Part shown: positions 15,940 through 18,751 of the stretch, one piece after another | Numbering within the stretch: the stretch's first letter is position 1 | How the letters are laid out: each line of letters starts with the position of its first letter | NCBI GenBank assembly: GCA_947377285.1 | Contig: CANCFT010000004.1 | Location: forward strand, 62,001 to 126,000 | DNA: 64,000 bases | Direction: 5' to 3' | Source: Bacteriovoracaceae bacterium | GTDB taxonomy: Bacteria > Bdellovibrionota > Bacteriovoracia > Bacteriovoracales > Bacteriovoracaceae | Notes under the pieces: generated by a model | What the model was told of the DNA's origin: nothing | What the model saw: only the letters and a program-made list of their open reading frames with translations | Databases searched by the model: none | Made by a program: the position numbers and the translations under genes

Positions 15940-17244
15940 TTAACCAAGTAGAGAAGAATCAAGTATGACAGCGCCGTGGACTAACATTTGTCTGCCTTTT
16001 TTTCCGAGTAGTGGATAAAATGCATAGGGAATCTTGTGATCTTTAAGCCATTGAGTGCTTTTTGGGAGCAATGGATGAATGAGCTTCGAAGATTTTGACT
16101 GATCCAACTTATTTAATAAAGTAAGGTATGGGAAAAACCATTTTTTTTGTTTTTTAAAAGTACTGGAAGTAATCTGCGTAAGAACTCCAGCTTTTTTAAA
16201 GTGTCCCAATAATTTCTCGTCACAATCTCGGTAATAATCTAAGTGAAAATCATTACAAATAAATAAATAACGATCGAGAATATAAATTTTCACACCACCT
16301 GAAAAAGATAATGGCCCCTTCATTTTTAGCGCCGTACTTTCATTGACAATTTTTTGGTGGGCCTTGATTAATTTATCGACTTCGTGATCAATTTCTCCCC
16401 GGTGACTTTTAGAAAAGAAATGAATCCATTCTTTAATATGGGATTTATGAAAATGAAAATCATGAGAACGCAAAACAACTGCACCTGAACTTTCTCGAAA
16501 TTCAGAAAGTATTGTTTTAGCCGCCATCTTTTTATCGTGAAAAAGGGAGCGATGGAGATTTAAATCGAGGGCCAATTGAGTTTGCCGGGCCACATAATGG
16601 GCGAGATATTGTGGGTATCTTTTGGCAATTGGTGCAGTTAATATTTGACGAAAAAAATTTCTCTCAAAGCGCATATCTCGGTTAGATGAATCTTGGGCCC
16701 AAGTTAAACCGAGGGATTTAGCATATGTAATAATTTGATTTTTGCTCACGCACATAAAAGGTCTAACTAACCCTTTATTAAAAACAGGAATCCCCAATGT
16801 CGATGCGAGAATACTTTGTTTAAAGGATTGAATCATACTCCATTCAAAAGAATCATCTAAATGATGAGCTGTATGAACCCAATAATTTTTTTGAATATAT
16901 TGTTTATAAACTTCGGCCCTTAAATTCCTGGCCACTGCTTCAAAATTGGTTTGTTGTAAACTCAATTGAAATTTTACAATATCAAGTTCTAGTCCTAAAA
17001 GGTTGCAATGCTTAATAACTAATTGCTCTTCATCAATGTTTTCCGCTCGCGTCCCATGATTTATATGTAAAACACGCAAATTTCCTTTAAAAATAGAGGC
17101 CAAAACATACATTAAGGCCATGGAGTCAACACCTCCTGAAACTGCTACTAAAATGCGCATGTCAGGATTGATCAAATGCATTGAGTCCATAAACAAATGA
17201 ACATGTTTAACAAATTTTGACGCCATAAATTTTGATTTGGCCAT
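15940..17244 (-). CDS. tilS: tRNA(Ile)-lysidine synthase TilS
   Basis: Seen: 434 residues with the PP-loop ATP pyrophosphatase signature AVSGGVDSM (34-42). It is followed by the family's HINHGTRA and AHHLDDS segments and RNFFRQ. A TilS-type C-terminal domain appears to be present but weakly conserved. Known: it ligates lysine to C34 of tRNA-Ile2(CAU), changing its codon reading from AUG to AUA; cytosolic and essential. ATG at 17244 has AGGAA upstream. It is first in the tilS-ftsH-folP run. A tRNA gene with a CAT anticodon is divergently placed 141 bases away, the class of anticodon that this enzyme must discriminate. Confidence 0.94.
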   Translation of the reverse strand: MAKSKFMASKFVKHVHLFMDSMHLINPDMRILVAVSGGVDSMALMYVLASIFKGNLRVLHINHGTRAENIDEEQLVIKHCNLLGLELDIVKFQLSLQQTNFEAVARNLRAEVYKQYIQKNYWVHTAHHLDDSFEWSMIQSFKQSILASTLGIPVFNKGLVRPFMCVSKNQIITYAKSLGLTWAQDSSNRDMRFERNFFRQILTAPIAKRYPQYLAHYVARQTQLALDLNLHRSLFHDKKMAAKTILSEFRESSGAVVLRSHDFHFHKSHIKEWIHFFSKSHRGEIDHEVDKLIKAHQKIVNESTALKMKGPLSFSGGVKIYILDRYLFICNDFHLDYYRDCDEKLLGHFKKAGVLTQITSSTFKKQKKWFFPYLTLLNKLDQSKSSKLIHPLLPKSTQWLKDHKIPYAFYPLLGKKGRQMLVHGAVILDSSLLG

Positions 17245-17340
17245 AGTTATTCCTAAAGGCCATCATAGGAGGAAAAGTCTTTTAAGCAAAGTCTTGATGC
17301 CTGAAAAAGGTGAGAAATACTTGAAATTTTATAGAAATTC

Positions 17341-17369
17341 TTGACAGAGTACATGCAAATAAATAGGAT
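17341..17369 (+). promoter_or_regulatory. Sigma-70-type promoter of the tRNA-Met gene
   Basis: A perfect -35 box TTGACA at 17341-17346, a 17-base spacer, and TAGGAT at 17364-17369 as the -10 box. Transcription should begin near 17376, about ten bases before the tRNA 5' end. Confidence 0.75.
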
Positions 17370-17385
17370 GAACCAAACTTTTTTA

Positions 17386-17462
17386 GGCTTGGTAGCTCAG
17401 TTGGTTAGAGCGATGGATTCATAACCCATAGGTGGGCAGTTCGATTCTGCCCCAAGCCACCA
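17386..17462 (+). tRNA. tRNA-Met (anticodon CAT), encoded CCA
   Basis: Seen: a full cloverleaf. The acceptor stem GGCTTGG/CCAAGCC is followed by discriminator A and an encoded CCA at 17460-17462. The D arm is GCTC...GAGC and the T arm is GGCAG-TTCGATT-CTGCC. The anticodon loop is TTCATAA with CAT at 17420-17422. The anticodon stem ATGGA/CCCAT pairs except for A31-C39 next to the loop. A CAT anticodon fits initiator Met, elongator Met or Ile2. The paired first base pair and lack of three G-C pairs before the loop argue against initiator, and U4/U5 in the acceptor fit Met better than Ile2. A lipoprotein gene follows 7 bases after the CCA. Confidence 0.92.
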
Positions 17463-17469
17463 ATTAACA

Positions 17470-17727
17470 ATGCAAAAAATTATTTCTTCTATTTTCTTCT
17501 ACACATCATTTTTCATCCTTTTGACTCATTGTAGTTCAATGCCAGTTCAAGTAGTAAATCAAGAAACAAAAAAAGTCATAAAAATTGAAAACACTAGCTG
17601 CGTTTGCGTTCAACTGTGGATGCCCGTTTGTGGAGACAATGGAAAAACTTTTTCAAATTCTTGTTTTGCCAATTGTGCAAAAATGCACTTCACTCAAGGC
17701 GCTTGCGCTAAGACTCAAAAAGATTAA
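17470..17727 (+). CDS. Kazal-type protease-inhibitor lipoprotein
   Basis: Seen: 85 residues. A lipoprotein signal ends in LLTHC (Cys21 as likely lipid anchor). It is followed by a single Kazal domain with the C-x-C...PVCGDNGKTFSNSCFANCA pattern and a final Cys after GA. Six cysteines fit three disulfides. Known: Kazal domains block serine proteases by a substrate-like loop. The gene starts only 7 bases after the tRNA CCA and no Shine-Dalgarno sequence is visible. It therefore seems to be co-transcribed with the tRNA and freed as an almost leaderless mRNA. Its last 20 bases overlap the end of the convergent oxidoreductase gene. Inferred role: guarding the cell's own envelope against secreted S1/S8 proteases. 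Confidence 0.85.
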   Translation: MQKIISSIFFYTSFFILLTHCSSMPVQVVNQETKKVIKIENTSCVCVQLWMPVCGDNGKTFSNSCFANCAKMHFTQGACAKTQKD

Positions 17728-18751
17728 TTTCTCGAAATATTTTCTTGGCACATAAAAGTGAAAAACTAAATCCATTTTTATATAGGCCATTAATGGTAAA
17801 AATCGTTTTTTCAGGATTAAGGGCACAAGACATTGGTCTTCGTCTCACACCTTTAAGCCTGAGTCCCGTTATGAGTTTAAAATTATTTAATTCTCCAAAC
17901 GATATATGGCAAAAATCATTAAAGGTTTCTAGGATCTTTTTTAATTGAGATAAATCTGCCACTGCCAAAGTGTCCTTCATTGAACTGCTCCCAATGATTA
18001 AAGATTTTTCCTGAGATCTATAAATACAGTTCAGTTCATCTATCGTGAGATAAAAAGATGGCATATGAAGATCAACTTTTTTTTCTAAATAATTCCCTGG
18101 AACAATTTGAGTGTTACTAAATTCGTCTTTAAGTCCAAAAAACTCAGAATATAATTTTGCGAAAGCTCCAGTGCAAAATAGTATTTTTTTTGTTTTCACC
18201 ACTTGATTATTATATAATTGGCAAACATAAGTACCATCAATATTTTTTGAAAAAGATTTTAAAAAATACAAATAACGATCAATTTTAAATTCAGATAACT
18301 GCGACTCAAACCATGACCGGTACATCAATGGATTGATGAGATAAGAATCTAATAATGTACCCTCAAAACTTTCTTTAAATGGTGAATGAGTATTCATTTG
18401 TAATTTTTTAAATCGTCTAATCATTTTTGCTTTATGTAAGTCATCTGAATAAGTTATGGCTTGAGTCGCTTTTTCTACGCCTGTTGGACTATATAAATTA
18501 ATAAAATGTTGGAATAAAAAAAAGGAATCTCGCAATTCGTCCCCTAGATCACTTACCCCGTCTTCTATTCCGTTTAAAGAAACTGTTGCTGTTGAGCGCA
18601 TTGAACAGCTTGGAGTTATTTCTTCTGAATAGACTTGAGCAACAGAAAAATTCTGACTTTTTTTCACATCTTCGGAATTAAACAGTTCAAAAAGAAATGT
18701 TTGGGCGGCAATACCATTACCAACTACTAATAAGTCATAAACCACAATCAA
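17708..18751 (-). CDS. FAD-dependent oxidoreductase, DAO-like
   Basis: Seen: 347 residues. The N-terminal dinucleotide fold is LLVVGNGIAAQ (GxGxxA with Gly11 and Gly13). A closing segment NGLYKNGFSFSLLCAKKI looks like the second FAD-contacting region of the glycine/D-amino-acid oxidase family. No signal peptide or membrane span is present. Known family members oxidise amines or alcohols with FAD. No pathway partner is adjacent, so the substrate cannot be named. The 3' end overlaps the convergent Kazal gene by 20 bases. Codon use is like the neighbours. Confidence 0.7.
   Translation of the reverse strand: MIVVYDLLVVGNGIAAQTFLFELFNSEDVKKSQNFSVAQVYSEEITPSCSMRSTATVSLNGIEDGVSDLGDELRDSFFLFQHFINLYSPTGVEKATQAITYSDDLHKAKMIRRFKKLQMNTHSPFKESFEGTLLDSYLINPLMYRSWFESQLSEFKIDRYLYFLKSFSKNIDGTYVCQLYNNQVVKTKKILFCTGAFAKLYSEFFGLKDEFSNTQIVPGNYLEKKVDLHMPSFYLTIDELNCIYRSQEKSLIIGSSSMKDTLAVADLSQLKKILETFNDFCHISFGELNNFKLITGLRLKGVRRRPMSCALNPEKTIFTINGLYKNGFSFSLLCAKKIFREINLFES

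Follow-up and report, generated by a model that had tools for sequence, protein, structure and literature searches.

The locus lies in a window of 64,000 nucleotides (the whole stretch of DNA analyzed here), drawn from a 3.4-Mb Bacteriovoracaceae assembly that is 92.75% complete. A tRNA-Met gene is followed there, on the same strand and after seven bases, by a short ORF for a predicted lipoprotein with a single Kazal domain, and the pair is flanked by two genes on the opposite strand:

15940..17244, minus strand: tilS-like gene (PP-loop ATPase), divergent neighbor kept beside tRNA-Met (Pfam; tblastn of relatives)
17341..17369, plus strand: sigma-70-type promoter TTGACA-17-TAGGAT of the tRNA, the one candidate that could also serve the Kazal ORF (consensus scan, 10/12)
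17386..17462, plus strand: elongator tRNA-Met(CAU) gene, CCA encoded (ARAGORN; Rfam RF00005; comparison of CAU tRNAs)
17463..17469, plus strand: 7-base gap ATTAACA, tRNA 3' trailer and presumed mRNA 5' leader (DNA letters)
17470..17727, plus strand: predicted lipoprotein of 85 aa with a single Kazal domain; lipobox LTHC ending in Cys21, and six Kazal cysteines (ORF list; Pfam; alignment)
17708..18751, minus strand: oxidoreductase-like ORF, convergent, overlapping the Kazal stop tail to tail (ORF list; tblastn of relatives)

The tRNA Gene and Its Neighbors

ARAGORN calls a tRNA-Met(CAT) with encoded CCA at 17386-17462 of the window, and the same gene matches RF00005 in Rfam at 65.9 bits. A tRNA-Ile2 identity, prompted by the adjoining tilS, was dropped because G002 and G015 each carry three CAU tRNAs: an initiator, a separate tRNA-Ile2-like gene and one of the window's type, which we take to be the elongator tRNA-Met, its split from tRNA-Ile2 following features that we presume to hold here. 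In the window, as in many relatives, the anticodon stem has an A-C mismatch beside the loop (GGATTCATAACCC). The convergent ORF at 17708..18751 has no match in Pfam, and we presume it to be oxidoreductase-like from its start, GNGIAA.

Among 87 distinct tRNA genes in three genomes (28, 31 and 28), tRNA-Met-Kazal is the only case where an ORF of 70 aa or more begins within 15 bases of the tRNA. As a separate observation, a tRNA-Gln gene is followed 22-42 bases on, with no terminator between, by an ORF beginning MKRIVLVSGSSN, a putative and presumably Prs-like gene (L049, L380 and L393; 3/3 genomes examined).

Expression Signals at the tRNA-Kazal Junction

The earlier note had placed the Kazal ATG seven bases past the encoded CCA, with neither a Shine-Dalgarno (SD) sequence nor room for a promoter between, and each of these points is borne out. 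ATTAACA occupies 17463-17469 and the ATG stands at 17470; no SD tetramer is present at -16 to -4, and the 20 bases upstream pair with the anti-SD, whose letters we assumed, at best with +0.3 kcal/mol, whereas the median for 361 genes of the same genome is -3.9. The best promoter-like site in tRNA plus gap scores 7/12, and no TANNNT occurs there; in particular, the TANNNT six bases before the AUG that marks leaderless mRNAs arising from transcription start is absent. The start region is unfolded (0 kcal/mol over 60 nt including the gap), and a 135-nt RNA joining tRNA and ORF is no stabler than its shuffles (z -0.9; 37/200 shuffles as good).

A scan likewise upholds the claim that the only visible promoter lies before the tRNA: from the end of tilS up to the Kazal ORF, TTGACA-17-TAGGAT is the sole promoter-like site on the plus strand. 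The consensus scan is weak by itself, finding 6 sites against 6.4 expected in shuffles, but a like site, scoring 9-10 of 12, precedes the tRNA in 15/15 compared loci. Since nothing ends transcription between tRNA-Met and the Kazal gene, with no terminator-like site anywhere in 16800-18400 of the window, the two very likely form a single co-transcribed unit.

The Predicted Kazal Lipoprotein

The 85-aa ORF matches Kazal_1 with 27.6 bits (gathering threshold 21) and Kazal_2 with 27.2 bits (gathering threshold 22.8; PF00050/PF07648). Bacterial lipoboxes follow the rule [LVI][ASTVI][GAS]C after an N-terminal hydrophobic stretch. The lipid cysteine, Cys21 in the window, and the six Kazal cysteines are kept in all 14 aligned members, and the lipobox residue at -1 is His in the window versus Ala, Gly or Ser in the 13 aligned relatives. 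Between the window and seven relatives the Kazal domain has a dN of 0.14-0.34 with a dS of at least 0.87, saturated in two comparisons, and this low dN against dS argues that the protein is kept by purifying selection. A chance ORF is argued against by the Pfam score, the conserved position and the selection, and a start codon further in by an N-terminus that equals its nearest relatives in length up to the lipid cysteine.

Among named genomes the best protein matches are from Bacteriovorax sp., Bacteriovoracaceae and Halobacteriovorax, and a family profile run against solved structures has the leech tryptase inhibitor (LDTI), rhodniin and infestin among its best PDB matches. With these nonclassical inhibitors the window protein shares a short CysI-CysII spacing and the PVCG..GKTY.N.C core; it differs in being a predicted bacterial lipoprotein and in its predicted P1 Gln. 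At that position, which we take to be the second residue after CysII, the 14 aligned members carry Gln, Glu or Lys, a variation that suggests different protease targets. As to its role, our guess would be a shield against proteases set free in predation. Literature searches on Kazal with Bdellovibrio found nothing, and those on Kazal lipoproteins of predatory bacteria returned, judged by title, nothing about bacterial Kazal proteins. Four tandem Kazal profile matches occur in ORFs of 271-278 aa at two further loci (L169 in G077 and L181 in G076); the tRNA-linked lipoproteins have one.

Linkage across the Bacteriovoracaceae

Kazal relatives were found in 25/57 genomes by search and in 95/129 genomes of the family by profile search, and many of those in the family sit apart from any tRNA. 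Among the loci examined, a tRNA-Met gene lies directly 5' of a same-strand Kazal ORF at 15 loci in 15 genomes, representing four genera: 11 from the window's genus, two from g8 and one each from g16 and g20. These 15 genomes share the order tilS (minus), elongator tRNA-Met (plus), Kazal (plus), oxidoreductase (minus), with the flanks not all matched in two. By tblastn with the window's neighbors, tilS is divergent upstream in 14/15 loci, the contig of G010 giving only 293 bases there, and the oxidoreductase is convergent downstream in 14/15, G003 having no match.

The window's genus comprises 14 genomes, and the linkage is present in 12/12 of those assembled beyond the tRNA, including G011, whose contig starts partway through the tRNA, with the Kazal ORF 58 bases past the truncated gene. 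The other two are G012, whose tRNA stands at a contig end (matched over 67/77 bases, with no Kazal in the locus), and G009, which gives no match to the window's tRNA-Met.

In the family at large, the window's tRNA-Met was matched in 120/129 genomes, and 70 loci, not every match, were fetched. Thirteen of these show the tRNA-Kazal pair. Among the remaining 57, L238, L255, L260 and L278 have little or nothing past the tRNA, and the other 53 have no Kazal match within the stretch fetched. At six of the Kazal-less loci (L244, L246, L248, L250, L259 and L264) the oxidoreductase comes after the tRNA at a distance of 10-142 bases. The Kazal gene thus reads as a cassette set between tRNA-Met and oxidoreductase, carried by four genera and elsewhere lost or never gained. 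As for tilS, most of the fetched tRNA-Met loci of the family, those lacking Kazal among them, have it divergent beside elongator tRNA-Met, not tRNA-Ile2; at L284 it instead lies downstream of the tRNA in the same orientation, with an ORF start at 31 bases.

Gap Length and Start Signals in the 15 Linked Loci

Conservation of the spacing, which the earlier note had raised as a check on its reading, does not hold. The CCA-to-ATG gaps are 7 (window), 16, 21, 26, 38, 39, 40, 41, 44, 45, 47, 57, 60, 61 and 82 bases, with an alternative ATG at 55 possible in G001; a conserved 7-base spacing is thus ruled out, and an almost leaderless mRNA arising through tRNA processing would be specific to the window species. 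An SD tetramer precedes the Kazal ATG in two of the 15 loci, both from g8 (G020 and G074), and is absent from the other 13.

All 15 loci are compatible with co-transcription, since tRNA and ORF share a strand and none of the gaps contains a terminator; after the Kazal stop codon a terminator occurs in one of the 15 (G028). The window ORF has no separate candidate promoter, whereas G028 and G032 do, and these are the only two of the 15 with a good promoter site in tRNA plus gap that ends six bases before the ATG. The site in G028 is TGGCCA-17-TATAAT (10/12) and that in G032 TTTTCA-17-GATAAT (9/12), each ending exactly six bases before the Kazal ATG. At the G028 locus (L020) the -35 hexamer TGGCCA falls inside the 3' end of the tRNA. 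A 9/12 site in G010 ends three bases before the ATG. TANNNT six bases before the ATG is found in 3/15 loci (G028, G010 and G002), with GATAAT in a fourth (G032), and G004 and G007, with gaps of 21 and 16, have no TANNNT in tRNA plus gap and a best site of 7.5 on the 12-point score. In at least two relatives, then, a candidate promoter of its own would make the Kazal mRNA leaderless, and for the longer-gap members ordinary and own-promoter starts are equally possible. The earlier note's reading survives in part: a gap with neither a promoter nor a terminator, the tRNA promoter and the linkage in 15 genomes, and the leaderless starts that look normal in the genus favor it. As a conserved device it finds no support, given gaps from 7 to 82, an SD in two relatives and an own candidate promoter in at least two, so that inhibitor output would not in every relative hang on tRNA transcription alone.

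A Leaderless-Start Signature in the Genus

We surveyed gene starts in 464 kb of the window's own genome (400 kb plus the window; 400 long ORFs) and in 400 kb of G002 (341 long ORFs), taking the first ATG of each long ORF as its start independently of annotation and dropping ORFs whose first ATG lay more than 90 bases in. An SD tetramer precedes the first ATG in 43% and 46% of cases, respectively. The promoter comparison set aside genes that had a same-strand neighbor within 80 bases. Among genes without SD, TANNNT at -12, exactly six bases before the ATG, occurs in 13/110 in the window's genome, where other offsets average 4.4 (Poisson P 6e-4), and in 17/106 in G002, where they average 3.9 (Poisson P 9e-7); among SD genes it occurs in 0/77 and 0/78. 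In G002 these sites have higher -35 scores than sites at other offsets do (P 0.011), and the corresponding excess in the window's genome is not significant (P 0.13). Leaderless mRNAs thus appear, from their start signature, to be a normal gene class in the window's genus, which would make translation of an mRNA with a 7-base leader plausible. A literature search on leaderless starts in Bdellovibrio found no transcription start map for the Bacteriovoracaceae.

A Proposed Route from tRNA Transcript to Kazal mRNA

We propose that tRNA-Met and the Kazal gene form a two-gene unit read from the tRNA promoter. On the uncut RNA the tRNA, folded to within seven bases of the ATG, would hinder 30S binding by a steric block. 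An endonuclease, most likely of the RNase E/G type, would then cut just after the CCA; with CCA already present in the gene, one would expect cleavage slightly past it and then trimming. The tRNA's 3' maturation would thereby likely free a leaderless-like mRNA that carries a 5' monophosphate and no more than about seven bases ahead of the AUG. Its translation would follow the leaderless route that the genus appears to use for one class of genes. The product would be exported, anchored by lipid and presumably active against a serine protease.

The genome encodes an RNase E/G protein (343 bits), and candidates for RNase Z all fall below the family cut-off, so the cutting enzyme is uncertain. In Propionibacterium acnes, cuts have been mapped a few bases past an encoded CCA (PMC3848588), and RNase E cleaves single-stranded stretches beside tRNAs (PMC3985628). 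Leaderless translation is described as requiring a 5' phosphate and, in some studies, as reduced by greater distance from the 5' end (PMC9031893). A 7-base leader may therefore be suboptimal.

The whole account, from shared transcript through tRNA 3' cut and leaderless-route translation to an exported, lipid-anchored inhibitor, draws on the gene order, on a gap where SD, promoter and terminator are all lacking, on the conserved linkage, on the selection seen in the Kazal domain and on the genome-wide start signature. Against it count the short gap, found only in the window with all others at 16-82, the possibly suboptimal leader, the ordinary stability of the joined RNA, the sub-threshold RNase Z candidates, the lipobox His, the two relatives with SD and the at least two with promoters of their own. 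On balance we hold it to be slightly better supported than its negation.

Three other explanations are each improbable to us. The Kazal gene might have a promoter of its own that overlaps the 3' end of the tRNA and yields a leaderless primary transcript, with little part left to the tRNA promoter, as would suit the TATAAT and GATAAT sites six bases before the ATG in G028 and G032, the TANNNT in G002 and G010 and the genome-wide enrichment of the -12 signature; yet in the window tRNA plus gap hold neither a TANNNT nor a site above 7/12, and G004 and G007 (7.5) are alike in this, which leaves such a promoter an unlikely source here. We assign the same low standing to SD-less initiation on the uncut, tRNA-containing RNA, with tRNA processing not the source of the functional mRNA: the gaps of 38-82 in many relatives give a ribosome room beside the folded tRNA, and G020 and G074, among those long-gap relatives, have an SD, but the window's acceptor stem ends 8-11 bases from the ATG, which at the footprint sizes of the 30S subunit would leave it little space.

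Slightly less probable still is decay, in which a deletion shortened the gap in the window's lineage and the Kazal gene is now barely expressed. The window's gap is the shortest of the 15, the relatives' pyrimidine-rich trailer is missing from it, and His precedes the lipobox Cys; set against this, the ORF is full-length with all six Kazal cysteines, and dN is low in 7/7 comparisons with dS at 0.87 or above, or saturated.

The proposed release of the Kazal mRNA by tRNA 3' maturation can be taken further, to a form of tRNA punctuation, which we advance tentatively and consider doubtful as a whole. Maturation of tRNA-Met would license translation, the AUG lying hidden next to the folded tRNA before cleavage and near-5'-terminal afterwards; the same gene would be leaderless by two routes in the family, through excision here and through a -10 element six bases before the AUG in relatives; and inhibitor dose would be coupled to the supply of an essential, single-copy tRNA.

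Relation to Known Systems and Biological Meaning

In bacteria, tRNA and protein genes are known to share a transcript that maturation splits, as at the present locus, in cases such as secG-leuU of E. coli, tyrT-tpr, thrU-tufB and metY-nusA; the protein genes there have ordinary leaders, whereas the window has a 7-base gap without SD. In animal mitochondria, where tRNAs punctuate the primary transcript, tRNA excision likewise makes the 5' end of a nearly leaderless mRNA, but punctuation covers most genes of the organelle, and in the window it would concern one gene of a bacterial chromosome behind a tRNA with encoded CCA. The leaderless mRNAs of P. acnes and mycobacteria resemble the predicted Kazal mRNA in having no SD and an AUG at most some 10 bases from the 5' end, and their TANNNT-6-ATG signature is found in the window's genus; their ends come mostly from transcription start at the AUG, whereas the Kazal end would come from tRNA processing. 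Each of the three is known, and their combination in bacteria was not found described: the earlier note knew of no example of the arrangement, and the open-licence literature, with subscription journals outside reach, held no bacterial leaderless mRNA made by tRNA excision.

The start signatures point to a class of leaderless mRNAs in the Bacteriovoracaceae. If the account is true, excising a tRNA would by itself produce the beginning of an mRNA in a free-living bacterium, and in a predator lineage the supply of a tRNA would be linked to a protease inhibitor at the cell surface.
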